A DNA stretch of 34,335 bases, taken from positions 1 to 34,335 of the forward strand of contig JAILAF010000087.1 of assembly GCA_024681775.1 (NCBI GenBank), in the 5' to 3' direction. Both the position numbers and the translations under genes were made by a program. The DNA comes from Lachnospiraceae bacterium (GTDB lineage: Bacteria > Bacillota > Clostridia > Lachnospirales > Lachnospiraceae). Below the pieces are notes generated by a model. That model saw only the letters and a program-made list of their open reading frames with translations. It did not search any database and was not told where the DNA came from. Below, one piece after another: positions 1,720 to 26,223 of this stretch. Position 1 is the stretch's first letter. The number at the start of each line of letters is the position of its first letter.

Positions 1720-2997
1720 TTACTCATACCGCAGCGCCTCGATGGGGTTCATCATGGCTGCCTTATTCGCCGGGTAATATCCGAAAAACAGGCCGATGGC
1801 CATGGAAAAGATCAGACTTCCCAGGATACTGCCCAAAGAAGGTGAAGCCGCGTAACCCATGAGTTTTGCGCCCAGGGCGCCCAGACCCAGGCCCAGGCCG
1901 ACGCCGATGGTGCCGCCGATGAGGCAGATGATCATGGACTCGATGATGAACTGCAGCCGGATGGACGCATTGGTGGCACCCAGCGCTTTTCTGGTACCGA
2001 TCTCCCGGGTCCTCTCCGTCACGGACACCAGCATGATGTTCATAACGCCGATGCCGCCTACCAGGAGCGCAATCCCGGCCACCAGGGAGATAGCCTTGGT
2101 CACCGCCCCCATCATGTCTCCCATGGACTCCACCATGGATGCCATGCAGAAGCTGTCGATGGTATAGAACTGATTGTCACGGTAAAACCCGGAAAGATAA
2201 TCCTTGATCTGCCCGGAAAGGGCGGTGGGATCCACACCCTCTCCCGCCACCACATCGAAGCTGGCAAATAACCGGTTGTGCATCAGGTCACACGCCAGGG
2301 ACAGGGGAATGTAAACATCGGTAGCCGTAGAGATCATCAGGGAAATCATGGCATTTTCTTCCTGCTTGTATACACCGGTCACCGTCAGCATCATGGTGGT
2401 CTCGTTGATCGTGACCTCAAAATCCTTGCCTATGGCCTCCTGCGGATCCACCTCCCACAGCTTTTTCACCATGGATTCGGATACAATAGCGGCTGTTTTT
2501 TTACCGGAAATCTCCTGATCGGTAAAATATGTCCCGGCGAGAAGTTCTTTGTTGTTTCCCATAAAATATCCGTTGCTGACACCGGAAATGGAGATATCCG
2601 CAGAGTTGGTGCCAACCTTGACCGTGTCGTTCGTAACGGATTTATTGATGGAGATCGCTCGGATCTGATCCCCGAATTTTTCGCTCATGCCCTGGATCAT
2701 TTCCAGCGTGATCAGGTCTTCCATTGTCGCAGTTGGATCCGTCTCCACGGTTCCAAAGATAATGCCGTCCTCCCGTTTTTCCTCTTCCACCCGCTTCTGG
2801 GTCAGATAGACGGAGATGTTACTGGCACCCAGACTCTGCATGGAGGATGTCAGAGCGTTGGACAGGGAATTACCGACGGTCATGATGGCGATCACGGAGG
2901 CGATACCGATGATGATGCCCAGCATGGTCAGAAGCGCACGGGATTTATTGGCTCTCAGGCTGGTGAAAGCCATTCGTATGTTTTCTCCTAAGAGCAT
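1720..2997 (-). CDS. MacB/FtsX-type ABC transporter permease
   Basis: A 425-residue inner-membrane permease. It starts [31 protein letters not shown], the standard MacB N-terminus, with the first membrane helix at about 20-42. A large extracytoplasmic MacB_PCD domain follows (about 45-275), then three C-terminal membrane helices beginning with ISLVAGIALLVGGIGVMNIMLVSVTERTREIG, the conserved FtsX coupling region. It ends ANKAAMMNPIEALRYE, as MacB homologues do. The start has a strong AAGGAGGG ribosome site and overlaps the ATPase gene by 10 bp, so the two are translationally coupled. With its ATPase and adaptor it should export a substrate such as a peptide or lipophilic drug; the substrate cannot be read from sequence. 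Confidence 0.93.
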   Translation of the reverse strand: MLLGENIRMAFTSLRANKSRALLTMLGIIIGIASVIAIMTVGNSLSNALTSSMQSLGASNISVYLTQKRVEEEKREDGIIFGTVETDPTATMEDLITLEMIQGMSEKFGDQIRAISINKSVTNDTVKVGTNSADISISGVSNGYFMGNNKELLAGTYFTDQEISGKKTAAIVSESMVKKLWEVDPQEAIGKDFEVTINETTMMLTVTGVYKQEENAMISLMISTATDVYIPLSLACDLMHNRLFASFDVVAGEGVDPTALSGQIKDYLSGFYRDNQFYTIDSFCMASMVESMGDMMGAVTKAISLVAGIALLVGGIGVMNIMLVSVTERTREIGTRKALGATNASIRLQFIIESMIICLIGGTIGVGLGLGLGALGAKLMGYAASPSLGSILGSLIFSMAIGLFFGYYPANKAAMMNPIEALRYE

Positions 2998-3728
2998 GCT
3001 TCACCCTCCTTTGCAAGAGGCGGACGTTCCACCACTCTCTCCCCGGTAATGCTGCCGTCGCTGATGGAGATGATCCGCTGGGTCTCTTCCGCCAGTTCAT
3101 GGGAATGGGTGATCAAAAGGATGGTCTTGCCCTCCTGGTTCAGCTTGTGAAACAGATCCATCACGATACGACCGGTCTTGGAATCCAGTGCACCGGTGGG
3201 CTCATCCGCCAGAATGATGGCAGGGTCATTGGCCAGACTGCGGGCGATGGCCACACGCTGCTTTTGTCCGCCGGAAAGCTCCTCCGGCATATGCTTCATG
3301 CGGTCAGCCATTCCCACCATCTCCAGAAGCATTTCCGCTTTTTCCGTCCGCTCTTTCCGGGGAACGCCCGCATAGAGCATAGGAAGCTCCACATTTTTGA
3401 TGGCATTGGTCTTGGGAACCAGATTGTAGGTCTGGAACACAAATCCGATCTTCTGGTTCCGGACAAAGGACAGCTCGGTGTCATTGGCCAGATCGATATC
3501 CAGCCCGTCGATGAAGTATTTTCCAAAAGTTGGCCGATCCAAAAGCCCAATGACGTTCATGAGGGTGGTCTTTCCAGAGCCGGAGGCTCCGACAATGGAA
3601 ACAAATTCTCCCCGGGTAACGTCCATGTCGATCCCATTCAGGATCTGGAGCTCATTGGGCTGGCCGATATAAAATCGTTTGATGATCCCGCGCAGGCGCA
3701 GGAGCGAGTTTTTTTCTTCCGTATCCAT
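2988..3728 (-). CDS. MacB-type ABC transporter ATP-binding protein
   Basis: A 246-residue ATPase of the LolD/MacB class that powers the permease. Walker A is GASGSGKTT (about residues 43-51), the signature is [15 protein letters not shown], Walker B is [12 protein letters not shown], and the switch histidine lies in [11 protein letters not shown]. The mid-region [19 protein letters not shown] is typical of this class. The start is an ATG with GGAG six bases upstream. The gene sits between the adaptor (13-bp gap) and the permease (10-bp overlap), so all three are one operon read from the promoter at about 5387. The permease is separate here, whereas E. coli MacB fuses ATPase and permease in one chain. 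Confidence 0.95.
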
Positions 3729-3741
3729 AGTTGCTCCGATA

Positions 3742-5280
3742 TTAGAAATACAGCAGCTCGTTCATATCCAGCTCACCGCTGCTTTCGATCACTTTCACCT
3801 TATCGCCTTCCTTCAGGCCCTCTCCCGCAACTTCCGTATAGTAACTGCTTTCCATCAGGATCTGAACGGGAACCACTTTAAAGCTTCCGTCCGCCTGGTG
3901 CACCTCCACGAAAGTACTTCCGTCCTCCGCAGTCTGAACCGCGGTGTAGGGAACGGTGAGGGCTCCCATGTGCTCATCCACAATAATGCTGAGAGATGCG
4001 GACATGTCCAGACGAAGTCTCTCCTGCTTTTCCTTAAATCCTATCTGGACCTCGTATTTTATGCTAGTCTGGTCCTTGGAAGCAGTGGGAGAAACAAAGA
4101 GTACTTCGCCTTCCATTTCCTCATTGCCGGTGGCATTGGTCTTGATCAGAACCCGTTGTCCCACCCGGATATCGCTGATATCATATTCGGACACAAAGGC
4201 CTTGATCTTATAATCGGAAGTATCCTGGACCGTCAGGATGGGGCCCTGGGCGTATTTCTCTCCCTGCCGGAAATTGCAGGCCGTCACGACGCCGGATATG
4301 GGTGCGTAGAGATTCACCAGATCCAGCTGCTCCTCATAATCCTCGATCTGCTTTTCCTGCGCGTCGGTGGTCAGAGACAGGCTGGTCTGGGCCTGGCTGT
4401 TCAGTGCACTGTTATAAGAGCTCTGGGCATTTGCCACGGTCTGCTCATAGGACCTCTGCTGGTCACTGAAGGTCTTTTTTGCGGATTTTAACACATAGAA
4501 CTGCGCGTTTGCGGCATCTGCTGCAGCATCGGAGATTGCTTTTGCGGCGTCATGGGCCGCCTTGGCATTTGCCTCTGCCTGCATCGCCGCTTCCAGGGCA
4601 GCCTTCAGTTCTTCATAGTTTTCTGCCTGCTCTCCTGCCTCATCCAGCGCCTTCTGGGCCTCTTCCCTGACGGCTACCGCCTTCAGATACAGATCCCAGG
4701 CCTTGTTGGTATCATTCTGCTTACCGTTATAGGTGCCGCAAAGGCTGTCGTAAGTCTCCTGCTCCTTGGCAACGTTCTCTTCCGCAGCGGTCAGAGATTC
4801 CTGGGCGGTGACGATCTGATAGTCCATGGACCGCTTGGCATCCTTCACGCCGGCGGAACTGCTGGCCATGGTCAGGGCGTTCTTCTTCTCGGAAAGATCC
4901 AGATTGTCTCTGGCCTCCTGCAATTTTTCCTCGATGTCCTCGGAATCAAAGGTCACCAGCAGGTCTCCTGCCTTCACCTCATCGCCTACCTTGACATTCA
5001 GGGCGGAAATAGTGACACCGCTCAGCTCTCCCGTCAGGTCCCGACTCTCCAGGCTGACCACCGTGCCGGTTGCGCCCACGCTCTTGATCAGATCTCTGGT
5101 GGAAACCTCCTCCGTAGATGCAGTGGAGCCAATGGCAGACATGGCTTCAATGCTCTTTTTCACGGCAGATACCACGAAGGCGATGAGTGCGATCAAAACG
5201 ACCGCGACCACTACCACGATCACCACAGTCTTCTTCTTTTTCTTTGATTTGATCTGATCCAGTATTTCTGTATCGCTCAT
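3742..5280 (-). CDS. HlyD/MacA-like efflux periplasmic adaptor protein
   Basis: A 512-residue adaptor for the ABC exporter. A basic start (LDQIKSKKKKKT) precedes one membrane anchor at about 19-42. Then comes a lipoyl half-domain (LNVKVGDEVKAGDLLVTFDSE), a long Ala/Glu/Gln-rich helical hairpin (about 115-315), the second lipoyl half (LYAPISGVVTACNFRQGEKY), a beta-barrel (DIRVGQRVLIKTNATG) and a membrane-proximal domain. The hairpin is longer than in many Gram-positive MacA homologues. The ribosome site is AGAGGA. It is the first gene of the three-gene exporter operon. In a single-membrane cell it would work as an extracytoplasmic, membrane-anchored cofactor of the permease, because no TolC-like partner is expected. 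Confidence 0.92.
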   Translation of the reverse strand: MSDTEILDQIKSKKKKKTVVIVVVVAVVLIALIAFVVSAVKKSIEAMSAIGSTASTEEVSTRDLIKSVGATGTVVSLESRDLTGELSGVTISALNVKVGDEVKAGDLLVTFDSEDIEEKLQEARDNLDLSEKKNALTMASSSAGVKDAKRSMDYQIVTAQESLTAAEENVAKEQETYDSLCGTYNGKQNDTNKAWDLYLKAVAVREEAQKALDEAGEQAENYEELKAALEAAMQAEANAKAAHDAAKAISDAAADAANAQFYVLKSAKKTFSDQQRSYEQTVANAQSSYNSALNSQAQTSLSLTTDAQEKQIEDYEEQLDLVNLYAPISGVVTACNFRQGEKYAQGPILTVQDTSDYKIKAFVSEYDISDIRVGQRVLIKTNATGNEEMEGEVLFVSPTASKDQTSIKYEVQIGFKEKQERLRLDMSASLSIIVDEHMGALTVPYTAVQTAEDGSTFVEVHQADGSFKVVPVQILMESSYYTEVAGEGLKEGDKVKVIESSGELDMNELLYF

Positions 5281-8852: not shown

Positions 8853-9839
8853 TCAAAGCAGATGTGCACGGACCTCGTCAGGACTTTCAGATGACAGATA
8901 GATCGGTGCGATGTCGAAGACGGTCTTACATCCCGACTGTCCCTCTTTGTTCAACTTATACGCAGCCCGGGCATATGCCGCAATAACAGAACCCGTAAAC
9001 TCAGGATTGGAATCCAGCTGAAGTCTGTACTCAATGATGTGCTTGTTCTCTTTTTCAAATCCGGTGACCCCGCTACGAAGAACGAATCCGCCGTGGGGCA
9101 GGCCCTTATGATTCTCGTTCAGCTCCTCCTGGGAGATGAAATGAACCGTGGTATCATAGTCCGCAAAATAGTTGGGCATTTCCTTGATCTGCTTCTCGAT
9201 CTGAGATAGATCGGCTCCCTCTTCCGCAACGACATAGCACTCTCTGGTGTGCATCTGGCGGGTGGTGAGTTCAGGGTTCTCTCCTTTTCTGACGCTCTCC
9301 ACGGATGCTTCCACGGGAACGGTATACTGTCTGGCATCTTTGACACCGGGGATTCTGCGGATCGCGTCGGAATGTCCCTGGCTGACGCCTCTTCCCCAGA
9401 AGGTGTAATTGGAGCCCTCCGGAAGAACCGAGGTAGAGACCATTCTGATCAGGGAGAACATTCCGGGATCCCAGCCTACGGAAATGATACCCACATGTCC
9501 GGACTTCCGGGCGGCTGCATCTACATTTGTAAAATGCACCGGAATCTTCGCATGCGTATCGAAACTGTCTACTACGTTAAACCACTGTGCGTACTTCGGT
9601 GTCTGCTCCGGCAGGTCGGTGGCACTGCCGCCTCCCAGAACCAGAACATCAATCTTTTCCTTCCATTTCTCAATCTCATCCACGGAACAGACAGGGATGC
9701 CTTCGGTCTTGATCTTCAATGCCGAGGGATCTCTTCTGGTAAAAACCGCAACCAACTCCAGATCCGGATTCTGTCTGATAGCACTCTCCACGCCTCTCGA
9801 CAGATTACCGTATCCGACAATACCGATTCTGATGCTCAT
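8853..9839 (-). CDS. ddh: meso-diaminopimelate D-dehydrogenase
   Basis: A 328-residue NADPH enzyme that reductively aminates L-2-amino-6-oxopimelate to meso-diaminopimelate in one step, feeding lysine and peptidoglycan synthesis. The N-terminal Rossmann motif is RIGIVGYGNLSRGVESAI. Conserved segments include VLGGGSATDLPEQ, NVVDSFDTH, and VGWDPGMFSL, diagnostic of Ddh. The C-terminal EFTGSVIAAYARAA and length match the family (about 326). The ribosome site AAGGAG sits nine bases before the ATG. It lies downstream of rep in the same direction with an 87-bp gap. A single-step DAP enzyme placed beside a plasmid-type origin is notable, because it would tie the replicon to cell-wall synthesis if it is the only copy. 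Confidence 0.95.
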   Translation of the reverse strand: MSIRIGIVGYGNLSRGVESAIRQNPDLELVAVFTRRDPSALKIKTEGIPVCSVDEIEKWKEKIDVLVLGGGSATDLPEQTPKYAQWFNVVDSFDTHAKIPVHFTNVDAAARKSGHVGIISVGWDPGMFSLIRMVSTSVLPEGSNYTFWGRGVSQGHSDAIRRIPGVKDARQYTVPVEASVESVRKGENPELTTRQMHTRECYVVAEEGADLSQIEKQIKEMPNYFADYDTTVHFISQEELNENHKGLPHGGFVLRSGVTGFEKENKHIIEYRLQLDSNPEFTGSVIAAYARAAYKLNKEGQSGCKTVFDIAPIYLSSESPDEVRAHLL

Positions 9840-9926: not shown

Positions 9927-11108
9927 TTATTCTTCGTCATCCGGCACTTCAAAGGGAAGGGACATCTGGGTAAAATCCACTTCCACCGGCTGATCGTCAA
10001 TCTGGATGATGCCACGGTCCTTTGCGGCGGCCAGCTGCGCTTTGGTGGGGATAAAGTTTCGCTCGATGGCTGCCAGGATGTAGGCGATGGGATCCTCCAC
10101 TTTTTCCTTGGAAGTCTCATAGAGCATAAATGCCTTGCGGATCAGGTACACATTGTACTTCGATTTCTCCGCAATGTTCGCCACATCCTTCAGCTTCATG
10201 GCCAATCCGGACTCATTCATCAGCTGAAGTACAACATCCATGACGTTCTCTTTTTCTTCTTCGGTAACCTCTCCGCTCTTGGGCGCGTTCTTTACGGGCT
10301 GCACAACCTGCATTGTAAAAAGAATGTTCTCGACTTTGCCGCCTCTTCCGCAGCGCTCGGTATCGTACTGGACGATCATCTCCGTCTTCTCGCTGATCTC
10401 TTTCACCGCGGGATCGATCACTCTTCTTCTGAGGGCTGTCCAGTCATCATAGGCCGTATCCCTCTTTGCCTTCAGCACAGCGGCGGCATAATCCTTATTG
10501 GTAGGTTTCGAGATCTTACTGAGATAACTCTTTGCAGCGGGATCGTTAGCATCCACTACACCTATGACAAACTTGAGTTCTGCAATTCCGTAACGTATGC
10601 TATATAATTCTCCCGTGGCAGAACTTCCCTTCGGATGATAGCAATAGGATTTCAAAAGCTCGTACAAACGAAAGGTATAATCGGACCGGAAATTCATCAT
10701 GGTCTGAAGATTCAGCCTGGTGAAATTGGAAGTGATGTCGGAAATGTATTTCTTGAGCTCACTGTTAAAGATGATGGTGAACTCTCCGTTTTCGTATCTG
10801 GCCTTCTGGATCAGGGGGATGTACTCAAACTCTCCCTTCTCCGGATCCTCATACCCGATCACGCGTCCGCCCAGCGCCTGGGCAACGGGGATCAATTTCG
10901 AATAGAAGGAACCGCTGTTGGAACCGGTCACTCTTCGAAGCTCCGCTGCTGTAAATGTGTACTCTGCCGCCTTATCCCCCAGCTCGGCCTCTTTTACCTG
11001 GGACAATGCGTAGGTTACGATCTTATTTTCCAGTAATGTCCCCTTATATTTGGAAGTGATGAGGACATTACTTTTTATGATGTTTTTTTCCGGCATTTGC
11101 CCCGCCAT
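9927..11108 (-). CDS. Rep_3-family (RepB-like) replication initiator
   Basis: A 393-residue initiator. The N-terminal half fits the Rep_3 double winged helix: IIKSNVLITSKYKGTLLENKI at the start, a first winged helix up to residue about 130, then NFTRLNLQTMMNFRSDYTFRLYELLKSY, the most conserved Rep_3 segment, and a second winged-helix region with IAELKFVIGV. The C-terminal part (about 270-393) is helical and acidic at its end. In iteron plasmids this protein binds repeats next to the origin, opens DNA and represses its own gene. I prefer ATG 11108, which has AAGGTGGAG nine bases upstream; a GTG at 11123 is also possible. Iterons begin 40 bp upstream, which supports autoregulation and the function call. 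Confidence 0.88.
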   Translation of the reverse strand: MAGQMPEKNIIKSNVLITSKYKGTLLENKIVTYALSQVKEAELGDKAAEYTFTAAELRRVTGSNSGSFYSKLIPVAQALGGRVIGYEDPEKGEFEYIPLIQKARYENGEFTIIFNSELKKYISDITSNFTRLNLQTMMNFRSDYTFRLYELLKSYCYHPKGSSATGELYSIRYGIAELKFVIGVVDANDPAAKSYLSKISKPTNKDYAAAVLKAKRDTAYDDWTALRRRVIDPAVKEISEKTEMIVQYDTERCGRGGKVENILFTMQVVQPVKNAPKSGEVTEEEKENVMDVVLQLMNESGLAMKLKDVANIAEKSKYNVYLIRKAFMLYETSKEKVEDPIAYILAAIERNFIPTKAQLAAAKDRGIIQIDDQPVEVDFTQMSLPFEVPDDEE

Positions 11109-11146
11109 AGTACTTTTCTCCACCTTTCCATTTTCCTAGTTTAAGC

Positions 11147-11314
11147 CTTTTTGTACACAATTACAAGCCTTTTTGTACGGCATAACCCTACATTTGTACA
11201 TGAAACACACCTTTTTTGTTCCGAGTAACTCCTTTTTGTACAGTTCTTTCACCCGGATTGGGCTGTGGAAGCCTTGATTTTGCTGGGTTTTTGTGGCCTC
11301 TCCTTTTTGTACGG
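11147..11314 (+). repeat. Iteron cluster A, next to rep
   Basis: Core TTTTTGTAC. Taking the G of GTAC as reference, units lie at 11153, 11175, 11196 (ATTTGTAC), 11218 (TTTTTTGTTC) and 11238, spaced 22, 21, 22 and 20 bp, or two helical turns. Two further copies lie at 11293 (TTTTTGTGG variant) and 11309 (exact). Seen from the rep gene the cores read GTACAAAAA. The position directly upstream of the rep start suggests both origin binding and autorepression. Confidence 0.8.
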
Positions 11315-11545
11315 TTCTTCTTGCTTTATGGTCCATATTGGCCGGACCGCGTCCCCAATCATTGTTCGGGGCAGATCTCAGGAGTGAACTCTCCCGCCCG
11401 GCGCATCCCGCAGCTGCAGGTATCCGCTCCTTTTCCTTTTGTGGCGGTTGGTCGGTCTTTCCACTGCGAAACGCAAGCCGGATTCCTTTCGATAATGTAT
11501 CCTGCGAAAAATGAGTGTAAATCCGCGCTTTTTCTTCCTTCCTCA

Positions 11546-11625
11546 CCATTATTGTACACTTCTTCGGGCTTTTTTGTACAGCAAATTGCGCTTTTTTGTT
11601 CGGAAGTTTGCGCTCTTTTGTACAG
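11546..11625 (+). repeat. Iteron cluster B, exact 22-bp period
   Basis: Four units with the G of the core at 11554, 11576, 11598 and 11620: spacing exactly 22, 22 and 22 bp. Cores are TTATTGTAC, TTTTTGTAC, TTTTTTGTTC and CTTTTGTAC. Flanking bases are also conserved, with GC before the T-run and AG or GG after GTAC in most units. The direct orientation and constant period are what iteron binding of a Rep_3 initiator requires. Confidence 0.85.
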
Positions 11626-11648
11626 AGCTCTTCTCTCGTATTTGGGCG

Positions 11649-11725
11649 TTTTTGTACAGTTCTTTTATTTCTTCTGTACGGAACTGCCTACCGAACCGTA
11701 CAGCTCTTTCCCCTTATCTGTACGG
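11649..11725 (+). repeat. Iteron cluster C, exact 22-bp period
   Basis: Four units with core G at 11654, 11676, 11698 and 11720, again exactly 22 bp apart, and separated from cluster B by 34 bp. The first core is exact (TTTTTGTAC). The other three have a weaker T-run (TTCTGTAC, ACCGTAC, TATCTGTAC) but keep GTACRG and often GAACT after it. This cluster abuts the AT-rich DNA. Confidence 0.82.
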
Positions 11726-12037
11726 AACTAGATTCGGGATTTCCTGGTTTTACTGGCTTTCTGAGGCATCTAAATAAATAATCAAATTTGTTGTTATAAA
11801 AAATAAATTAAGTATTAACAAAATGGTTGTTTTTATAACGCCCTCTCATCACAAGCAAAATAGCTGTGTCATTTATATAGCCGTAAATTCAAGGAAAATT
11901 ACATGTGCAATTATGACAGGGAATGTTTTTGACAGTCGTGATAGATTACATAAGAGAATAAGATCTTGCTAAATAGAATTTGATATCTAAACAAGTCAAA
12001 GCATTGTTAATCAAGTCAGTCAATGAAAATTCACTAC

Positions 12038-12046
12038 TTTTTGTAC
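12038..12046 (+). repeat. Isolated iteron core in the AT-rich region
   Basis: An exact TTTTTGTAC followed by GGAAG, as in other units, about 320 bp right of cluster C. It stands alone in AT-rich DNA. Confidence 0.55.
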
Positions 12047-12900
12047 GGAAGTTAGCTGAATGATTTAATGACGTTTGTTTTTTAGGCGTTTTTAGGAATG
12101 CTTAGCGTGCATATTCCAGGCCTTCTTCCGGAACTGATGGTACTCTTCTGGCGGCTCAGATCGTGGACTTTTGGTATAGGGGCGGAAGATCAAGCATGGA
12201 GTGGGTTTCTCCTTTTATTCGCTTCATTTATATGTGATTTGTCATTTTACGTACATGTAATTCTGTACTCTTTTTTACATACTTTCATGCATCTTTGTAT
12301 GCTTATTTTTCTTTAATTTTGTGTTCATACACTTATGACCACTTGATTGTATATAAACCTGTCTACATAAAATTAAATTTGTTTATGCGTATGTTTATCT
12401 GTAAACATAATTATATAACTGCAAATGTGTAAGTATTTATAACACTATGTGTTCATGAATGCTTGTTTGAGTACGGATATAATGATAATACATATTCATA
12501 TAAATGGCAAGAGCCGATTAATTAAATACAATATGTAAACAGAATTACATAATTACATTAGTGCAATAAAAAATCCTTAATTTATAGGTGCTCTATAAAT
12601 GATTGCAGTCAAAAAGCAGAGCTCTGAGGCTGAATGAAAGAAAAGGCATATTATCTTGATTCAGGAGACAAAAAAGTACAAACAATTAAGAAAACTAAAA
12701 TGTATAATTGTAGAATTACCAGTACATAAGCAATTATAAAATCATACAAATAAAAATACAAGAAATTATAATTGGAAAAAATTAAGGAAGTAAGTATATA
12801 TGTTTACAAATAATCAGAATTACAAAGAGACAAGAAAACCAACAATCAAATTTGCAAAAATACATACAAATGTATATAATAACAATGTTGGTTTTGTTCT

Positions 12901-12909
12901 GTACAAAAA
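12901..12909 (+). promoter_or_regulatory. Inverted iteron core just before parA (candidate operator)
   Basis: GTACAAAAA, the reverse complement of the iteron core, lies 14 bp before the parA start codon, overlapping the expected ribosome-binding leader. The placement suggests control of the par operon by the initiator or by the ribbon-helix-helix protein. Confidence 0.5.
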
Positions 12910-12923
12910 GAGAGAGTAACGAT

Positions 12924-13685
12924 ATGAAAGCAAAAAAGATTGCCATAGCAAATCAAAAGGGCGGCGTCGGTAAGAGCACGACGGCCATCAACATTGCAGA
13001 TGCTCTGAAGCGCTGCGGATACGAGGTGCTCCTGGTGGATTTGGACCCTCAGTGCAATTCTACGAACAGTTTTCACGCGGAAATCGAAGACTGCAACACG
13101 CTGTACGATGTCATGACCGGCGCTGTGAAGGCTGCCGACGCGATCCAGAAGACGGAGATGGGTGACATTATCGCGGGTGATCACCTTCTTTCCGGCGAAG
13201 AGAGCAAGTTTATGAGTAAGCCCGGTGCTTATTCTATCATTAAAAGAAGTCTGAAGCCAATCGAAGAGCAGTATGACTTCATTGTCTTCGATACGCCTCC
13301 CAACCTGGGCATATATATGCTGAACGCTCTGGTCGCAGCCGATGGTGTGATCATTCCGATCAAGGCGGAAAAATACGCGATCGACGGGCTTTCCGAGCTG
13401 ATCAAGTCCATCAACGAGGTGGTTGAGACGGAGAATGAGGATCTGAAGATCTATGGCGTCCTCATGACGGCGTATGATAAGAGAAATGCATTAGATAAGG
13501 AAATGTTCAAAAGGCTTCCCGAAGTGGGAGAGCAGAACGGGTTTAAGGTGTTTGATACACCAATCAGGATCTGCCAGACCATCAAGGTTGCACAGGCAGA
13601 AGAGGTATCACTGTTTGACAAGGATTCTACCAGTACGGGCGCAATTGACTATGTTGATCTGATCAAAGAGATCTTGGGGGTATAA
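12924..13685 (+). CDS. parA: ParA-family partition ATPase
   Basis: A 253-residue deviant-Walker ATPase that drives replicon segregation on the nucleoid. The Walker A motif is QKGGVGKSTT (about residues 11-20), with the signature lysine. Walker A' is VLLVDLDPQCN and Walker B is YDFIVFDTPPNLG. There is no N-terminal HTH domain, so it is a small type Ib/Soj-like ParA. The start is the ATG at 12924 (MKAKKIAIANQ); a longer frame from 12852 adds residues outside the family. The partner gene follows after 3 bp, so they form one operon. Divergent placement from rep across the iterons confirms its role in maintenance of this replicon. Confidence 0.95.
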   Translation: MKAKKIAIANQKGGVGKSTTAINIADALKRCGYEVLLVDLDPQCNSTNSFHAEIEDCNTLYDVMTGAVKAADAIQKTEMGDIIAGDHLLSGEESKFMSKPGAYSIIKRSLKPIEEQYDFIVFDTPPNLGIYMLNALVAADGVIIPIKAEKYAIDGLSELIKSINEVVETENEDLKIYGVLMTAYDKRNALDKEMFKRLPEVGEQNGFKVFDTPIRICQTIKVAQAEEVSLFDKDSTSTGAIDYVDLIKEILGV

Positions 13686-13688
13686 TCA

Positions 13689-14315
13689 ATGGCAGCAACG
13701 AAAAAGGGTTCCAAGCCTGACCTGTTTTCGGGTCTTCAAAAGGCAAAAGCAGTCGAGAAGAAAGAGCCTGCGGTACAGGCAAAACCGGTAACGGAGGAAG
13801 ATACGCCTATCGCAAAGGCTACGACCAAAGATCCCGTGGAAGAGAACTTCCGTACAAAAGAGGTGCAGGAAGAAAAACCTTCACAGCAGGAGATCAAGTC
13901 TGTACAAAAAGTAGAAGAAGAGACGAAAGCGGTCGAAATTCCGGCGGTTCCGGAGATCAATATTCCCGCTGCGGAACCTGCAAAGGCAGTAACTTCTGTA
14001 CAAAAAGGAGAAACCCCTATCGTGCAGCCTATCAGCCCTGCGGCCGCGCCAAAGAAACGGGGAAGAAAAGCGGCGACTCCTACAGGAGATACCGAGGAGA
14101 TCTGCAGGCAGACCTACTATTATACATATGAAGAAATGGCTGCGATCAAAACGGTGGGCTTCCTGGAGGACAGGACACATTCCGAGATCGTCAGAGAATT
14201 GATAGATTACGCACTGGAGCAGAAATACCCCGGCCTGCTGGGAAGAGCGGATGTGCTGAAGAAGGCCGAGAATCTGAGAGAGAAGATCAAGAACAGACAG
14301 TCCATTGATGACTGA
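13689..14315 (+). CDS. Ribbon-helix-helix partition (centromere-binding) protein, ParB role
   Basis: A 208-residue protein three bases after parA. Residues 1-135 are low complexity, rich in Lys, Glu, Pro and Ala, and probably disordered. Near residues 138-180 there is a ribbon-helix-helix pattern: strand RQTYYYT, helix YEEMAAIKTVGFLEDRT, then SEIVRELIDYALEQ. A basic helix ends the protein. This is not a canonical ParB: I see no CTPase or HTH core. RHH proteins such as ParG or omega act as ParA partners, using a flexible basic tail to stimulate the ATPase and the RHH to bind the centromere. Three copies of the iteron core fall inside the linker-coding DNA. The linker therefore repeats the peptide SVQK (residues 71-74 and 103-106). 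Confidence 0.78.
   Translation: MAATKKGSKPDLFSGLQKAKAVEKKEPAVQAKPVTEEDTPIAKATTKDPVEENFRTKEVQEEKPSQQEIKSVQKVEEETKAVEIPAVPEINIPAAEPAKAVTSVQKGETPIVQPISPAAAPKKRGRKAATPTGDTEEICRQTYYYTYEEMAAIKTVGFLEDRTHSEIVRELIDYALEQKYPGLLGRADVLKKAENLREKIKNRQSIDD
13852..14006 (+). repeat. Iteron-like cores inside the partition gene (candidate intragenic centromere sites)
   Basis: GTACAAAAG at 13852-13860, GTACAAAAA at 13902-13910 and GTACAAAAA at 13998-14006. The last two share a longer TCTGTACAAAAA. They read in the same orientation as the copy before parA and opposite to the origin arrays. Spacing (50 and 96 bp) is not a multiple of 22. Confidence 0.6.
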
Positions 14316-14316
14316 G

Positions 14317-14345
14317 AAAACGGCGCCTTCGGGCGCTGTTTTTTA
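14317..14345 (+). terminator. Rho-independent terminator of the par operon
   Basis: The stem AAAACGGCGCC (14317-14327) pairs with GGCGCTGTTTT (14332-14342), with one G-T pair and a C(TTCG)G tetraloop, followed by six T (14339-14344). It starts two bases after the partition gene stop, so it closes the parA operon and insulates tex. Confidence 0.9.
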
Positions 14346-14601: not shown

Positions 14602-17025
14602 ATGGATATCAGCACTAAGATCGCACAGGAATTAGGAGTTAAGAAGAGTCAGGTAGATGCAACCATTGAACTGATCGACGGAGGGAACACCATTCCTTTT
14701 ATTGCCCGCTACCGCAAGGAGGCAACCGGCGCGTTAAATGATGAGCAGCTTAGAAATCTGCACGAGCGGCTTTTATACTTAAGAAATCTCGAAGAAAAAA
14801 AGGTCAGCATCATCAATGCCATCGATGAGCAGGGGAAACTGACGGATGAGCTGAAAAAGAAGATCGAAGAGGCGGAGAAGCTGGTTACGCTGGAGGATCT
14901 CTACCGCCCTTATAAACAGAAGAAGAAGACCAGAGCTACCGCGGCGAAGGCGAGAGGGCTGGAGCCTCTGGCAGAGTTCATTTTGCTCCAGAAAACGCAG
15001 GAACCTGTGGAAAACGAGGCACAGAAGTATGTCACCGGTCCCATCACGCCTGCATCCGAGTCCAAGGAAGACAAGGTCAAGGCAGAAGAAAAGCAGGTGC
15101 TTGATGTGGCGGCTGCTATTGCCGGAGCCAAGGATATCCTGGCAGAGATCTTTTCTGATGATCCGGATAACAGAACCTTCATCCGGAAACTGACGGAGGA
15201 CGAGGGAAAGATTGTTTCTTCTGCAAAGGATGCAACCCAGAAGACCGTATACGAGAATTACTATGATTATGAAGAGCCCATTCGCAAAGTGGTTGGCCAT
15301 AGAGTGCTGGCTTTGAACCGTGGCGAGAATGAGAAAGTCCTTACCGTGAAACTGGTGGCACCGGAAGAACGGATCCTGCAGCTCCTGGAAAACAAGATCA
15401 TCACCGAGGATAATCCGTACACCACGCCCCTTTTGAAAGAGGCGATCGCAGACGGATATGGCAGATTGATAGCGCCTGCTATCGAAAGGGAAGTAAGGGC
15501 GAGCCTTACCGACAAGGCAGAGGATGGAGCCATCGATGTCTTCGGAAAGAACCTTCGTCAGCTTCTCATGCAGCCTCCCATCGCCGGTCAGACGGTCCTG
15601 GGATGGGACCCTGCCTTCCGTACCGGATGTAAACTTGCTGTGGTGGATCCTACCGGAAAAGTATTAGATACGGTTGTTATTTATCCTACCGAGCCGCAGA
15701 ACAAGGTTGAGGAATCCAAGAGGATCGTAAAGAATCTGATCAAGAAATATCATATCGGCCTGATCTCCGTGGGTAACGGAACCGCTTCCAGAGAATCCGA
15801 GCAGGTGATCGTTGAGATGCTCCACGAGATTCCCGAGGCAGGTGTAAAATATGTGATCACAAACGAGGCCGGTGCTTCCGTTTATTCCGCCAGTGCGCTG
15901 GCAACGGAGGAGTTCCCTAATTTCGATGTGGGACAGAGAAGTGCCACTTCGATCGCGCGAAGGTTGCAGGATCCTCTGGCAGAGCTGGTAAAGATCGACC
16001 CGCAGTCCATCGGCGTGGGCCAGTACCAGCATGATATGGATCAGAAAAAGCTTAGTTCCGCACTGGAAGGTGTGGTAGAGGATTCCGTGAACCTGGTGGG
16101 TGTGGATCTGAATACCGCATCTGCGGCACTTTTGAAATATGTATCCGGCATCAGTTCCGCGATTGCCAAGAATATCGTGGTTTACCGCGAGGAGAACGGA
16201 TCCTTCGAGAGCAGAGCACAGTTAAAGAAGGTTCCGAAGCTGGGGCCCAAGGCGTTTGAACAGTGCGCCGGATTCCTTCGGGTAAGAGACGGCAAGGAGC
16301 CTCTTGATAATACGGGCGTCCACCCCGAGTCATATGAAGTGGCCCACAAAATTCTTAAAAAGATCGGGTGTGATTTTAACGATGCCAAGGCAATTGAAGC
16401 TTTTGAAAAGAGCATTTCCGATAAGGCTGCGCTCTCCGCAGAGCTGGGTGTTGGCGAGCTTACTCTGACGGATATTTTGCATGAGCTGGAGAAGCCCGGT
16501 CGTGACCCCAGAGAGGAAATGCCCCAGCCCGTACTTCGTTCCGATGTTTTGGATATGAAGGATCTGAAACCGGGAATGATCCTGAAGGGAACGGTCCGCA
16601 ACGTGATCGACTTTGGCGCATTCGTGGACATCGGCGTCCACCAGGATGGACTGGTCCACATCTCTCAGATCACGGACCGCTATATCAAGCACCCGCTTGA
16701 GGTGGTGTCCGTTGGTGACATTGTGGAAGTCAAGGTCTTGGGTGTTGACCTGGAGAAGGAGAGGATTTCCCTGACCATGCGTCTGGAGGAGACTCCTGCA
16801 GCTGATAAAAAACCGGAAGGCGGAAAGAAGCCGGAGGGGAACAGAAAATCCGGTGAAAACAGAAAATCCGGAGACAGAAGCGGCAGACCGGACAATCATT
16901 CCGGCAAAAATCAGAACTTCGGACAGAAGGGCAAGGACAGACCGACCGGCGGACGGAAGGATGATTTCGCACCCGGCACCATCGGTTATATGATGATGCA
17001 TAAAAACGATAAGAAAAAAGGCTGA
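14602..17025 (+). CDS. tex: Tex family RNA-binding transcription accessory protein
   Basis: An 807-residue cytoplasmic nucleic-acid-binding protein. In order: the Tex N-terminal helical region (MDISTKIAQELGVKKSQV; GGNTIPFIARYRKEATGALND near 28-48), a YqgF/RNase H-like domain from about 330 (GQTVLGWDPAFRTGCKLAVVD), helix-hairpin-helix motifs at about 500-563, and an S1 domain at about 652-724 (GMILKGTVRNVIDFGAFVDI). After the S1 domain comes a tail of about 80 residues rich in Lys, Gly, Asn and Pro, longer than in many Tex proteins and probably disordered and RNA binding. The ribosome site AAAGGAGAG precedes the ATG. It leads the rightward run of genes after the par operon. Confidence 0.96.
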   Translation: MDISTKIAQELGVKKSQVDATIELIDGGNTIPFIARYRKEATGALNDEQLRNLHERLLYLRNLEEKKVSIINAIDEQGKLTDELKKKIEEAEKLVTLEDLYRPYKQKKKTRATAAKARGLEPLAEFILLQKTQEPVENEAQKYVTGPITPASESKEDKVKAEEKQVLDVAAAIAGAKDILAEIFSDDPDNRTFIRKLTEDEGKIVSSAKDATQKTVYENYYDYEEPIRKVVGHRVLALNRGENEKVLTVKLVAPEERILQLLENKIITEDNPYTTPLLKEAIADGYGRLIAPAIEREVRASLTDKAEDGAIDVFGKNLRQLLMQPPIAGQTVLGWDPAFRTGCKLAVVDPTGKVLDTVVIYPTEPQNKVEESKRIVKNLIKKYHIGLISVGNGTASRESEQVIVEMLHEIPEAGVKYVITNEAGASVYSASALATEEFPNFDVGQRSATSIARRLQDPLAELVKIDPQSIGVGQYQHDMDQKKLSSALEGVVEDSVNLVGVDLNTASAALLKYVSGISSAIAKNIVVYREENGSFESRAQLKKVPKLGPKAFEQCAGFLRVRDGKEPLDNTGVHPESYEVAHKILKKIGCDFNDAKAIEAFEKSISDKAALSAELGVGELTLTDILHELEKPGRDPREEMPQPVLRSDVLDMKDLKPGMILKGTVRNVIDFGAFVDIGVHQDGLVHISQITDRYIKHPLEVVSVGDIVEVKVLGVDLEKERISLTMRLEETPAADKKPEGGKKPEGNRKSGENRKSGDRSGRPDNHSGKNQNFGQKGKDRPTGGRKDDFAPGTIGYMMMHKNDKKKG

Positions 17026-17309: not shown

Positions 17310-18299
17310 ATGAAAAAGAAATGGTTAGGGCTTTTCCTTTGCCTGGCTTTGTGGGCATGCATCGCTTCCGGATGTGCTCAAAAAACAGAGCCGGACGAAC
17401 CCCCGGTTTTGTCGGAGATTGCAGAACCCATCGCTGAGATGGCATCTGAGCCAGAGCCGGAAAAGGAAGAACCTGTGCAAGAGGAGATTGTCGAATCTCC
17501 GGAAGAAGATCCGGAGGCTTCTGTCGAAGGAGAGGGCCTTTCGGAGGATGATCCTTCCGATGAGCCTGCTCCTGAAGAGGGGACGACATCCGACCCTGAG
17601 GAGCCATTGCAGGAAACGCCGGATACGGTTCCCGAAGAACCGGAGGGCGATGTGGCACCACAGCCTGCCAACGGCTATATCATTGCCATCGATCCCGGTC
17701 ATCAGAAGACCGGCAATAGTGAGAAGGAACCTATCGGACCCGGCGCCAGCGAGATGAAGGCAAAGGTCTCCAGCGGGACCAGAGGGGTGTCCACCGGAAT
17801 CGCCGAATATGAGCTTACCCTGACGGTTGGCCTGCAACTGAGGGATGAGCTGGTAAACAGGGGTTACCAGGTGGTGATGATCCGGGAAACAAACGATGTG
17901 AACATCAGTAACAGCGAGCGTGCGGCAATTGCAAACAACGCGGGAGCAAATGCCTTTATCAGACTTCATGCGGATGGCTCGGAAAGCGCCGATGCAAGAG
18001 GTGCGATGACAATCTGTCAGACGTCGTCCAACCCTTACAACAGCGCATACTACGAGCAAAGCAAATCCCTATCGACGTCGGTTCTCGACGCTTTCGTTGC
18101 AGCCACGGGCTGTAAAAAACGGAACGTATGGGAGACGGATACCATGAGCGGGATCAATTGGTGCACGGTTCCTGTAACCATTTTGGAAATGGGTTTTATG
18201 ACCAATCCGACGGAGGATGAACTGATGGCCTCGGCGGATTACCAGGCCAAGATGGTGCAGGGCATAGCTGATGGAATTGATGCATTTTTGGGAAAATAA
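17310..18299 (+). CDS. Lipoprotein N-acetylmuramoyl-L-alanine amidase (Amidase_3)
   Basis: A 329-residue exported hydrolase that cleaves the MurNAc-L-Ala bond of peptidoglycan. The signal peptide ends in a lipobox-like ASGC, giving a lipid-anchored Cys22. Residues about 25-120 are a Pro/Glu/Asp-rich linker that spans the wall. The catalytic domain has zinc ligands and catalytic residues in IAIDPGHQ (His), AEYELTL (Glu), RLHAD (His) and [10 protein letters not shown] (Glu). A small insert with [14 protein letters not shown] is typical of clostridial members. It is probably part of cell separation or wall turnover. It follows the 75-residue gene closely and precedes a membrane protein gene by 15 bp. 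Confidence 0.92.
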
Positions 18300-18314
18300 G
18301 GAGGGAGAAACAAA

Positions 18315-19055
18315 ATGGAAAGTAACATGAACGAATTAATGCAACAGATCTACAAGTACGCGAATACATCGGGAGGCAGCGTAAATTACATTACCAACCT
18401 GTATTCCACTGCAATGGCGATCCTGACCATCGTAGGAACCTGGATGGTTTACAACAAGGCCAACGACAACGGTTGGGCAGCTATCATTCCTTTTTACAGA
18501 GAGTATGTCATGGCGCGCATCGCCGACAAGAAAAACGCCTTCTGGGGATACCTGATCGCTGCGATCATTGAGTTTTTTGCAGGAATTGCCTTTGCGGTAT
18601 CTCTTACCGTGGTCCTTCTTCAGCTCATCGGAAGCGGCTTTTCCTTCGGAGGATTCGATGAAGACTCCTACGGACTGTTCGGCGTGATGGCCCTTTCGTT
18701 GATCATCATGGGCATTGCGGGATTGGTAAAACTCATCATTAAGATCATTATGTATGCCGGCCTCACCAGGAATTTTGGATTGAACGGCGGCTGGGTTGTG
18801 GGTCTGATCTTCCTGCCCGGCGTATTTTTCCTGATCATGGGTGTGTCCGATAACATCCGTTATATTGCTGGCGCTCCCACCTACACTGCTGCTCCCACTG
18901 CTCCTTACGGGGATCCTGCATACGGCAACCAGGCATTTTCCAATCCTACCACGAATTCCTACGGAACTGCACCTACGGATTCTCAGCCCCAGGCTACCGA
19001 TCCGAACGCTGCTGCAGACCAGAACAACGATACCAACAATCCTTACATGAACTGA
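18315..19055 (+). CDS. DUF5684 membrane protein
   Basis: A 246-residue membrane protein with four hydrophobic helices at about 28-45, 72-100, 120-150 and 155-180. The segment WMVYNKANDNGWAAIIPFYR is the hallmark of DUF5684 (Trp-x-x-Lys-Ala...Gly-Trp...Ile-Pro-x-Tyr). The C-terminal 60 residues are a Pro/Thr/Ala/Asn-rich tail, likely exposed and disordered. AAGGAGGG lies ten bases upstream of the start. It is adjacent to the amidase, but no specific role is known for the family; a link to envelope function is inference. Confidence 0.82.
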   Translation: MESNMNELMQQIYKYANTSGGSVNYITNLYSTAMAILTIVGTWMVYNKANDNGWAAIIPFYREYVMARIADKKNAFWGYLIAAIIEFFAGIAFAVSLTVVLLQLIGSGFSFGGFDEDSYGLFGVMALSLIIMGIAGLVKLIIKIIMYAGLTRNFGLNGGWVVGLIFLPGVFFLIMGVSDNIRYIAGAPTYTAAPTAPYGDPAYGNQAFSNPTTNSYGTAPTDSQPQATDPNAAADQNNDTNNPYMN

Positions 19056-19112
19056 TCGTATTTCTCCGGACTTTTGCCAAAACAGTGATTTCGTTTGGAG
19101 AAGGGACGTGGA

Positions 19113-20384
19113 ATGAGCGACCGGGTGATCTTTCATGTAGATGTCAATTCCGCTTTTTTGTCCTGGTCTGCCCTCAAAGCACTTGAGGAGGACCCGGATT
19201 CCGTTGATCTTCGGACAATCCCGTCAGCTGTGGGCGGGGATGTCCGTACTCGGCATGGGATCATCACGGCAAAATCCATACCTGCAAAAAAATACGGCAT
19301 TGAGACCGGCGAACCGGTAGTAAAGGCATTGCAGAAATGTCCGGGTCTGGTGCTGGTTTCATCTGATTTTACTACCTATAAAAAATGCTCTGCCGCATTC
19401 ATGGAGGCGTTATATCGCTACAGCGATACAGTCGAGCAAGCCTCCATCGATGAGGCCTACGTGGATATGACGGGCCGGGAAGGGGATTTTGCAGAAGAGA
19501 TCGAGGCTGGAAACTCCTTCCCTTTGTGTGCGGCAGAAAAACTGAAAAATGAGATCAGGGATTCCCTGGGCTTTACGGTAAATGTGGGGATATCAAGTAA
19601 TAAGCTTCTGGCGAAAATGGCCAGTGATTTTACCAAACCCGACCGGATTCACACCCTGTTTCCGGAAGAGGTCCCCGCAAAGATGTGGGTCCTTCCCATC
19701 GAAAAGCTTTTCGGATGCGGCGGGAAAACTTCTGCAAGGCTGCGGGAAGTGGGGATCAAAACCATCGGGGATGCAGCAGCTGTGGACCCGGTTTATCTGC
19801 AAAAGCTTTTGGGCGACCGGTCCGGGGAGTATATCTATGCTGCAGCCAACGGGTGGGGGAGTACCACGGTCTGTTCCGAGGCTGACGCGGCAAAGAGTTA
19901 TTCCAACGAGCGCACCACTTCCGTTGATGTTACGCCGTTAAACTACGATGAGCTGGGGCGGGCTCTGCTGAAGGATCTGTCAAAAAAGGTTTCCGACAGG
20001 ATGAAAAAGGACGGTGCCCGTGGGAAAACGGTCTCCGTATCCATTAAAACTTCCGGATTTCGAAGGCATTCGCGTCAGACGGTTTTGAGCGAGGCAACGG
20101 ATGATCCGGAGATGATCTATCAGACGGCGGACCGTTTACTGACCGATCTGCTGTTTCAGCAGGCCGGGCTCTTTGACCAGGGTGATGGCATCCGCCTCAT
20201 CGGTGTGGGTGTGACAGGTCTGGAGGACAGTCCTTTTCACCAAATGGATGTATTCCAATGGATGAAAGAGGATGAAATCCGAAAGGAAGAAGCCATCAAA
20301 GAAGAAAAAAAGCGCAATCTACAGGACATGCTCGATAAGGCAAACGGCCGTTATGGAAACGGAACAATCCGAAAGGGCATGTAA
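19113..20384 (+). CDS. Y-family DNA polymerase (DinB/UmuC type)
   Basis: A 423-residue translesion polymerase. The first metal-binding motif is FHVDVNSAFLSW, the second is ASIDEAYVDMTG with the catalytic Asp-Glu pair, and between them lies TAKSIPAKKYGIETGEPV, which contacts the incoming nucleotide. NVGISSNKLLAKMASDFTKP is the palm-thumb junction and the helix-hairpin-helix follows. The little-finger domain occupies about 245-365 and the rest is a charged helix without a clear beta-clamp motif. I start at ATG 19113 because GGAGAAGGG precedes it; a TTG at 19095 extends the frame without support. No LexA (SOS) box was seen in the 57-bp gap upstream. Confidence 0.93.
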   Translation: MSDRVIFHVDVNSAFLSWSALKALEEDPDSVDLRTIPSAVGGDVRTRHGIITAKSIPAKKYGIETGEPVVKALQKCPGLVLVSSDFTTYKKCSAAFMEALYRYSDTVEQASIDEAYVDMTGREGDFAEEIEAGNSFPLCAAEKLKNEIRDSLGFTVNVGISSNKLLAKMASDFTKPDRIHTLFPEEVPAKMWVLPIEKLFGCGGKTSARLREVGIKTIGDAAAVDPVYLQKLLGDRSGEYIYAAANGWGSTTVCSEADAAKSYSNERTTSVDVTPLNYDELGRALLKDLSKKVSDRMKKDGARGKTVSVSIKTSGFRRHSRQTVLSEATDDPEMIYQTADRLLTDLLFQQAGLFDQGDGIRLIGVGVTGLEDSPFHQMDVFQWMKEDEIRKEEAIKEEKKRNLQDMLDKANGRYGNGTIRKGM

Positions 20385-20399
20385 GAGAAAGGTATTTTT

Positions 20400-21017
20400 A
20401 TGGAAAATAAGGTTTTGGCCCTGTCCTTTGACGACGGACCCAATACCACCATCACTCCGAAGATTCTGGATATTCTGGAGGAGTATCATATTGCAGCCAG
20501 CTTTTTCCTCATCGGACAGAATATCAAAGGGGAAGCTGTGGACGTGGCAAAGCGTGCCCTGGCTATGGGCTGTGATATCTGCAATCACTCCTTTACGCAC
20601 AAGGCCATGACGGAACTGACCCCGGAGGAGATCCGGGAAGAGATTGAAAAAACCGATGCGTTGATCCAATCAATTACAGGTGATATTCCTATTTTCTTCC
20701 GGCCTCCTTACATCAATGTAGATGATTATCTCTATGATCATGTGGACAAGGTCTTCATCTGCGGCGCCGGCTGCGAGGACTGGGTTCCGGAGGTTCCGGC
20801 TTCCGCCAGGATTGAGAAGACGCTGCAGCAGGCAGAGGATGGCATGATCTTTCTGTTCCACGACAGTGAGGGAAACGATGCCACTGTGGAGACCATGAAG
20901 GTGATCATCCCCGAGCTTTTGAGCAGGGGCTTTGAGTTCATCACGGTTTCCGAGATGTTCCGCAGAAAAAATGTGCCGCTGGATACCAAAAAGCACGAGA
21001 TCTTTACCGTGTTGTAA
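20400..21017 (+). CDS. Polysaccharide deacetylase (NodB fold), apparently cytoplasmic
   Basis: A 205-residue carbohydrate esterase 4 protein. Motif 1 is SFDDGP (residues 9-14, catalytic base and metal Asp), motif 2 is HSFTH (63-67, metal histidines), motif 3 is RPPY (101-104), and a late DS/H segment, MIFLFHDSEG, supplies the last motif. These are complete, so it is probably active as a metal-dependent N- or O-deacetylase. Unlike peptidoglycan deacetylases it has no signal peptide or anchor: the NodB domain begins at residue 4. A soluble substrate such as a chitooligosaccharide, sugar precursor or other amide is therefore possible. It lies 15 bp after the polymerase gene. Confidence 0.9.
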   Translation: MENKVLALSFDDGPNTTITPKILDILEEYHIAASFFLIGQNIKGEAVDVAKRALAMGCDICNHSFTHKAMTELTPEEIREEIEKTDALIQSITGDIPIFFRPPYINVDDYLYDHVDKVFICGAGCEDWVPEVPASARIEKTLQQAEDGMIFLFHDSEGNDATVETMKVIIPELLSRGFEFITVSEMFRRKNVPLDTKKHEIFTVL

Positions 21018-21051
21018 GAAACCTTCCGCGATGTCCGAAAGGAGGATGCTC

Positions 21052-21312
21052 ATGCAGGATGATATCAATATGCAGGTGACGCAGCCTTTCGAGAAAGATG
21101 GCAAGCGATACGCCTTTGTCCGATTTACCGACGAGAAGGGACGGAGTGCCGAGGGACGGATCCCTGAGTGCAAGATTCTCTCTTCCGATGGATTCACGGG
21201 CGAAGAGGTTGAGGCCCTGGAGCGTTATATGGAAGAAAACCTGGCGAAGATCAAGAAAATGGCCGCCGGTGTCAGGCTGTTGGATGCATTTATGAAGGAT
21301 GACAACAAATAA
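21052..21312 (+). CDS. Small conserved hypothetical protein (86 aa)
   Basis: An 86-residue protein starting MQDDINMQVTQPFEKDGKRY and ending RLLDAFMKDDNK. The first half is predicted beta (KRYAFVRFTDEKGRSAEGRI), the second half helical and acidic (GEEVEALERYMEENLAKIKKM). The ATG at 21052 has GGAGG six bases away. A longer frame overlapping the deacetylase gene has no start site. It lies 34 bp after the deacetylase and 24 bp before ldh. I know no function; similar small proteins occur across Lachnospiraceae. Confidence 0.78.
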   Translation: MQDDINMQVTQPFEKDGKRYAFVRFTDEKGRSAEGRIPECKILSSDGFTGEEVEALERYMEENLAKIKKMAAGVRLLDAFMKDDNK

Positions 21313-21336
21313 CATTTGTTACTAAAAGGAGGGCTT

Positions 21337-22290: not shown

Positions 22291-22418
22291 CATAACTCTA
22301 TCATCATTATGACGGAAATATTGCAAAATAAACAAAACACCTGCTCTGTTTGTGGCAAATTTTCCGAGATTTTCCAGCAGTAAATGGAAAAGGCCCCGAT
22401 TAATGCGGGATACAACCA

Positions 22419-22460: not shown

Positions 22461-22567
22461 AATTGTATGAATTGCAGGAACAAAAAGCAAATAGGATCAG
22501 TTTCCAGTGGGGGGGATCTTTTCACCGGACGATATCTTCCTATTGCAATATATCAAAGGAGTAATCT

Positions 22568-25320: not shown

Positions 25321-25332
25321 TCCGCCGGAGAG

Positions 25333-26157: not shown

Positions 26158-26176
26158 CGGAATGCATCCGAAAAAT

Positions 26177-26209: not shown

Positions 26210-26223
26210 TCATCTGCCGAAAC

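Follow-up and report, generated by a model that had tools for sequence, protein, structure and literature searches.

The DNA considered here is a stretch of 34,335 bp from an uncultured Lachnospiraceae bacterium, called the window, which is the whole of contig JAILAF010000087.1 (here contig C20) in its source genome bin, G000 (143 contigs, 2.906 Mb, 92% complete). Between 9,927 and 14,345 it carries genes and sites that the original prediction, made from the sequence, had described as a self-contained plasmid-type replication and partition module lying among genes that are normally chromosomal. The parts of the module are as follows.

9,927–11,123, minus strand: Rep_3 initiator gene, rep (Pfam Rep3_N, E 3.2e-31; Rep3_C, 3.8e-10), with its likely start at the ATG at 11,108
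11,148–11,725, plus strand: cluster of iterons upstream of rep, with the core TTTTTGTACRG and a 22-bp spacing between several copies
11,741–12,923, no strand: AT-rich putative origin region, with a further exact iteron core at 12,038 and the GC-skew minimum, 11,718, just before it
12,899–12,909, minus strand: an iteron copy in inverted orientation, shortly before the start codon of parA
12,924–13,685, plus strand: parA, partition ATPase (Pfam AAA_31, E 3.4e-54), 253 aa without an N-terminal DNA-binding domain, start placed at 12,924
13,689–14,315, plus strand: probable ribbon-helix-helix partner of ParA, 208 aa, from its position and a C-terminal likeness seen by eye
About 14,320–14,345, plus strand: probable intrinsic terminator of the par operon

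The Rep_3-like initiator, the iterons, the AT-rich DNA and parA are confirmed as a module by the Pfam matches, by the iteron counts and by the AT content, which is 71% over 11,741–12,930. According to Pfam, Rep has the two winged-helix domains of the Rep_3 iteron plasmids and, as in those plasmids, the iterons and the AT-rich stretch adjoin rep. It is the sole Rep_3 gene of the bin. Among named sequences the closest relatives, at only 32% identity, are those of Butyrivibrio fibrisolvens pNP243 and a 243-kb Roseburia plasmid; the latter also has, near its Rep, a ParA that is 56% identical to that of the window. Of 31 genomes surveyed in the genus, two have Rep, these being G000 and the sister species G008; both are fragmented bins, G008 being 89% complete. 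Across 397 genomes of the family, relatives at E <=1e-15 were found in 16, G000 counted, with a top foreign identity of 40%. There are no relatives in the viral contigs, and among named genome contigs the G008 contig is the only one with a match.

The exact iteron core, TTTTTGTAC, is present 11 times in the 52,733 bp formed by joining the window to its continuation, contig C83, with 10 of these copies within 11,148–14,006, compared with three in 380,000 bp of other DNA from the genome. The contrast is weaker for the 11-mer TTTTTGTACNG with up to one mismatch, which has 19 sites on the 52.7 kb (14 in the module) and 21 in 280,000 bp. Exact copies face one way up to 12,038 and the opposite way at and inside the par genes. 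A similar iteron cluster is present on the G008 contig that carries the module there; the 8-base core TTTTGTAC is found 12 times in the G000 module and 10 times in that of G008.

The 208 aa protein encoded after parA is likely to be a ribbon-helix-helix partner of ParA, as had been predicted. Its position and its C-terminus, which by eye is like those of the proteins encoded after parA in genomes G412, G341 and G164 and on the Roseburia plasmid, favour this. No Pfam or NCBIfam model matches it, and the AlphaFold prediction (pLDDT 52) is too poor for a fold search. A short ParA with a ribbon-helix-helix partner carries the label of type Ib partition. Three inverted iteron-like sites lie inside the partner gene, at 13,850, 13,900 and 13,996, and this stretch may be protein code and binding site simultaneously, as judged from the sequence. 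In G008 there are two iteron-like sites in the partner coding sequence (contig C80, 11297 and 11443), compared with the three in G000 (13850–14006). The terminator predicted after the par genes is probable, there being a hairpin, or inverted repeat, and a run of T that were read by eye.

A DnaA box at the origin is a feature of Rep_3 iteron plasmids. The exact box TTATNCACA is absent here, and none of the one-mismatch sites, three in 1.85 kb and 37 across the 52.7 kb, is convincing. Rep would bind the TTTTTGTAC iterons upstream of its gene and open the AT-rich stretch for theta replication, and ParA and its small partner would segregate a low-copy circle. Rep or the partner might couple copy control and partition by way of the iterons found at the start of parA and within the gene for the partner.

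The interpretation favoured here, with a probability of roughly 80%, is that the module serves a small circular replicon, separate from the chromosome, as its origin and partition locus, and that tex, together with several genes located elsewhere in congeners, is now detected only on this replicon. Two genes flank the module.

14,602–17,025, plus strand: tex, RNA-binding transcription accessory protein (Pfam), single full-length copy in the bin
8,853–9,839, minus strand: ddh, meso-diaminopimelate dehydrogenase (TIGR01921, 449 bits), single copy in the bin

There are matches to tex in all 31 genomes of the genus, those in G013 (a 79% complete bin) and G020 being only S1-type or short domains of other proteins, which leaves 29 with a true tex. 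In 17 of these 29, including G012 (contig C266), ispD is directly before tex. The other 12 comprise seven in which the context is different and has no ispD, three with too little sequence, and G000 and G008, where tex is present once, beside Rep. In G000, G008 and G013 the tsaE-tsaB-rimI-rnz-tsaD-ispD run is intact and is followed by a gene for a solute-binding protein (SBP) instead of tex; these gene names, like rpsB-tsf, the NAD genes and the FIST, AI-2E-type and chemotaxis-type genes below, were read from the sequence with no family search. The gene tex has been displaced from the ispD-tex chromosomal site onto the replicon, and is a better case of a displaced core gene than ddh. The direction of transfer would be that the replicon grew by taking in chromosomal genes, and once tex had left its site next to ispD the loss of the circle would have become costly. 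Neither tex nor Rep was found in the 79% complete G013 bin. A second, G013-like copy of the tsaD-ispD-SBP stretch is present on G008 contig C58, which is probably a contaminating contig. A single excision of the whole interval from ispD to the SBP gene, as arranged in G012, was considered and set aside as the whole story, given that ddh is inverted relative to tex; it is also countered by the matches to the AI-2E-type and chemotaxis-type genes of that interval, which lie on other contigs in G000 and G008 (those to the AI-2E-type gene also in G013).

In the case of ddh, the suggestion had been that it might be the sole route to diaminopimelate and so make the replicon essential. This fails because dapF is present, on contig C142 of G000. 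The gene ddh is found in 10 of the 31 genus genomes, and 16 of the 31, including the near-complete G001 and G002, have neither ddh nor dapF. Second copies of ddh and tex elsewhere, which would have weakened the prediction, are lacking in the bin. For ldh there is no second copy at the DNA level, 9 of 69 candidate places having been scored and no protein-level search made.

The circularity of the replicon is judged from a comparison of the two species, in which two further features of the window are involved.

34,195–34,335, plus strand: overlap with contig C83, the right-hand continuation, 141 bp exact, C83 being in the opposite orientation
1–1,719, no strand: insertion missing from G008, made up of an IS605-type TnpB fragment (Pfam Cas12f1-like_TNB) and other DNA, with the empty site in G008 contig C74

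The join between C20 and C83 is crossed by a single G008 contig, C66, in an alignment of 15,709 bp at 88%. Contig C74 of G008 has the C83-side DNA up to joined position 51,918, then 81 bp, then window 1,720–2,430, and G008 contig C80 begins at window 2,421. These three contigs (C80, C66, C74), 58 kb together, would make the circle of G008, and the gene order is common to the two bins over about 50 kb. A circle is preferred because a linear order needs a rearrangement between the species that carries precisely one end of the map over to the opposite end, whereas a circle needs none. A circular map of about 53 kb is therefore most likely in G000 as well, its closure there being drawn from the G008 contig sequences. 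The gene for DnaA (TIGR00362) is on a separate contig, C125, followed by genes reading as dnaN, recF and gyrBA, and C125 has its own skew minimum between dnaA and dnaN. The circular map with G008, the skew described below and the separate dnaA contig support the prediction that this is the origin of a separate replicon carrying normally chromosomal genes.

Several points weigh against this interpretation. The junction from C83 to the window is unassembled in G000, where a copy of a FIST-type gene and the TnpB fragment intervene; the two gaps in G008 on either side of C66, towards C80 and towards C74, are bridged by G000 only; and the two bins, at 92% and 89% completeness, are fragmented. The map is also compatible with a head-to-tail duplication in the chromosome. 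An artefact of binning or assembly, through contigs of another organism or a tandem duplication, would account for the map in another way, and G008 is indeed a low-coverage assembly with one contig at a coverage of 1.64. That two bins of different species should agree in gene order over about 50 kb, at 81–94% DNA identity, and that tex and ddh belong to the genus, makes such an artefact very improbable.

At the interrupted junction of G000, the partial FIST-type gene on one side is 97% identical to one on contig C3, and the TnpB fragment is on the other side. The FIST-type stretches C83:1–704, C3:39733–40436 and G012:C224:8188–8891 are 97–98% identical, where G012 tex-region DNA is near 74%, and this near-identity across bins suggests recent transfer or cross-contamination of the bins. 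Stretches similar to window 1–1,577, which has the C-terminal TnpB fragment (1,029–1,577) and adjoining DNA, are present in G016 and G001.

In the joined sequence the cumulative GC skew is lowest at 11,718, where the main iteron cluster ends, and highest at 49,320, where gene orientations converge. In the window alone the minimum is within 11.0–12.0 kb, and in G008 contig C80 it is at 9,830, between the iterons and parA. The sign switch expected at 11.1–12.9 kb is therefore seen, and gene orientation and skew are opposite on the two sides of the module. At 4-fold sites the asymmetry between strands is weak, which also counts against the favoured interpretation, as the interval of every zone reaches zero: +0.052 [-0.005, 0.112] for 23 genes of the right arm, +0.020 [-0.058, 0.114] for 10 genes of the left arm, and -0.082 [-0.168, 0.001] for 9 genes at 38.5–49.3 kb. 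The skew thus largely follows gene orientation. In chromosome stretches, some of which overlap, the same measure is -0.057 for 283 majority-strand genes and -0.086 for 20 minority-strand genes, and strands so nearly equal indicate that the test has little power. The skew is supporting evidence for the position of the origin, and not for the mode of replication. Bidirectional replication is not claimed from the 4-fold skew, given the zone intervals and the low power of the test; among chromids both unidirectional and bidirectional replication are described (PMC7858055).

The original prediction had also allowed for a plasmid origin integrated in the main chromosome, in which case the skew and the gene orientation would be coincidental. 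Integration does happen in the family, there being a related Rep_3 gene on the 3.37-Mb contig of G261, and the left end of G000 is an unassembled insertion that interrupts its closure. No positive evidence for integration was found at this locus, and the circular map with G008, the reversal of gene orientation and skew across the module, and a GC content of the 52.7 kb that is lower than in the chromosome sample make it improbable. The Rep_3 gene of G261 (C1:3244644–3245417) is in a single-contig genome of the same family and is itself an instance of a plasmid origin inside a chromosome.

In base composition the joined replicon is unlike the rest of the genome. Its GC is 0.509, as against 0.559 in a chromosome sample of 439,515 bp in which 7.8 kb are counted twice (sample stretches 0.48–0.58), and its dinucleotide distance is 0.042, as against 0.010–0.021 for 20 overlapping chromosome samples. 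Pooled GC at 4-fold sites (4-fold GC) is 0.699 in 45 replicon genes and 0.773 in 346 chromosomal genes of G000 (Mann-Whitney p 2e-8); the gap is smaller in G008, 0.678 (49 genes) compared with 0.719 (38 genes, two stretches). All but one of 14 replicon genes are below their orthologue in G012 or G013, the exception being the deacetylase (0.70 compared with 0.69); seven of these comparisons have only G013 contig C164 to draw on, while the other seven are all lower on the replicon. G013 may or may not have the replicon, C164 being collinear with 17.3–27.3 kb of the window but chromosome-like in pooled composition. There is no such shift between G000, G008 and G013 in the chromosomal tsaE-ispD genes. 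On the replicon the shift increases towards the origin (Spearman 0.39 with distance, p 0.008, 45 genes), and ddh, tex and the amidase have a 4-fold GC of 0.58–0.62 where their orthologues have 0.69–0.80; for ddh it is 0.62, compared with 0.80 in G013 and 0.77 in G012.

This shift may have come about in two ways: the genes drifted on the replicon once they had been relocated, or they arrived from a relative of lower GC. In the latter case the circle would be real, and would have come with tex from another species of the genus, after which the resident tex at ispD was lost as redundant. This is possible, if doubtful. The tex of G000 and G008 is on a long branch (0.46, compared with 0.16 for G012) at an unresolved fork, and its 4-fold GC (0.61, 0.59) is between those of low-GC congeners (0.28–0.57) and G012 (0.80). 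The ddh, ldh and amidase genes, on the other hand, are 84, 90 and 83% identical to those of G013 (other replicon genes 57–81%), which makes them as close as nine chromosomal genes are (55–87%). That ddh is close to G013, and so looks native, yet is shifted in composition suggests drift on the replicon and argues against foreign arrival.

A separate replicon with plasmid-type replication and chromosome-like gene content has precedents among the chromids of rumen Lachnospiraceae. These include the 302 kb BPc2 (PMC2914790), BhuII of 91,776 bp (PMC5716241), PxyII of 88,942 bp (PMC7523725) and the 266 kb pINBov266, in which the skew switches at the rep/par genes and which has the only TldE-TldD of its host (PMC6249431). 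Unlike those, the present replicon is only about 53–58 kb, is lower in GC relative to the chromosome, and has a relocated gene of which the old site is shown to be empty. The chromid-chromosome GC differences given in these reports range from 0.2 to 2.8 points (PMC5716241, PMC7523725, PMC2914790). Small chromids are also described in Paracoccus yeei (PMC6209633) and Dinoroseobacter shibae (PMC4373377). The latter is likewise small, at 72 kb, and has a conditionally vital role; it differs in its RepB-I-type replication and its host group, and is called a chromid for its chromosome-like codon usage (PMC4373377). The present replicon is not put forward as the smallest chromid, given that a 2025 survey has chromids of 0.04 to 4 Mb (PMC12456017). 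The Rep_3 plasmids that carry the sole rRNA operon in Persicobacteraceae, Aureimonas and others, the Persicobacter ones having gained parAB, share with it a Rep_3 initiator and the sole copy of a core gene on a plasmid (PMC10645730). They differ in being from other phyla, and here there is no rRNA, protein genes being displaced instead.

The megaplasmids of Roseburia sp. 831b and Butyrivibrio fibrisolvens D1 (pNP243) likewise have Rep_3 near ParA and a partner gene or ParB, while their Rep is only 32% identical and their cargo and gene order are different. In the literature searched, no title or abstract names the replicon of the window.

The label of chromid, which the original prediction had put first, holds in part. 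The replication and partition genes (Rep_3, ParA and the partner gene) are of plasmid type, tex is a core gene that is chromosomal in other species, and the replicon is apart from the chromosome with dnaA on the evidence of the G008 C74 map and of dnaA on C125, although it is not closed within G000. A chromosome-like base composition, which belongs to the definition as given in PMC5716241, is lacking, the GC gap being larger than in the published chromids cited above. By the same definition a chromid usually exceeds any other plasmid of its host in size and has genes that growth requires; here the bin has no further Rep_3 gene, tex is present as a sole copy, and ddh has a backup in dapF. It is best called a chromid-like Rep_3 replicon, one that works like a chromid and is like the rRNA plasmids in kind. 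What is new is a case smaller than the cited chromids of the family, in which the displacement of a gene can be traced and GC falls off towards the origin.

It may tentatively be proposed that this is a nascent second chromosome, a Rep_3 plasmid of about 53 kb that is taking in chromosomal genes block by block. The genes ddh, tex and the amidase, near the origin, would be the oldest and most drifted, and hflX and the FtsX-ABC-HlyD operon would be later, further out and more chromosomal, so that the circle could be read as layers. Arguments about how a plasmid turns into an indispensable second chromosome mostly draw on chromids that are large and old. The present replicon is small, there are relatives with and without it, and the empty site, the new place and the compositional change of one gene are visible together. 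Which genes are the first to move, and whether capture comes after a partition system, can thereby be tested in one genus. It is also a warning that short plasmid-like contigs in metagenome bins may hold core genes.

The rest of the cargo is in two main blocks.

17,310–27,309, no strand: genes for an amidase, a DUF5684 protein, a Y-family polymerase and a deacetylase, then ldh, tldD, pmbA and genes for a HAD and an LCP protein, collinear with contig C164 of G013 except for an insert in the latter
1,720–5,280, minus strand: FtsX-ABC-HlyD operon, which is beside rpsB-tsf in G013 and on G008 contig C74 adjoins the far end of the replicon

The prediction that ddh, tex, a Y-family polymerase, ldh, tldD/pmbA and an LCP gene lie around the module is as described. 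On C83 there are genes for MBOAT acyltransferases, a GGDEF protein, GH113, HflX, MerR, YbjQ, SfsA and others, of which hflX has other surroundings in G013, beside NAD genes. In G002 the matches to tex, tldD, ldh and LCP are spread across three contigs, C7, C12 and C9. No tRNA was found, and no Rfam family matches at gathering score in the window or C83, hence no rRNA operon; no relaxase or conjugation family was found among the proteins scanned.

Part of the cargo may have been born on plasmids, for example the Y-family polymerase. In G412, which has the closest foreign Rep (40%), a polymerase 49% like that of the window is a few kb from parA (contig C124, 711–2021 and 6555–10228). Near Rep in G333 and G236 there is a relative of the 75-aa gene after tex (17,056). 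These neighbours would suit an ordinary accessory plasmid on which the housekeeping-like genes are redundant extras, as would the plasmid-like base composition, the lack of tRNA and Rfam families, and dapF, which renders ddh dispensable in principle. That tex has no second copy and is gone from its old place, and that no relaxase or conjugation family was detected, makes this explanation unlikely. By tblastn, the 10–20 kb stretches surrounding 16 of 17 Rep places in foreign genomes (15 genomes) showed neither tex nor ddh.

Two further observations concern the cargo of other genomes. Beside the LCP gene, G008 (C66:24211–29066) has response regulator-, kinase- and ABC transporter-like genes that are missing there in G000. 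In another genus, contig C138 of G380, which carries a related Rep_3, encodes at 11810–12367 a protein with 74% identity over 186 aa to the TetR-like protein of the window (27,433–28,002).

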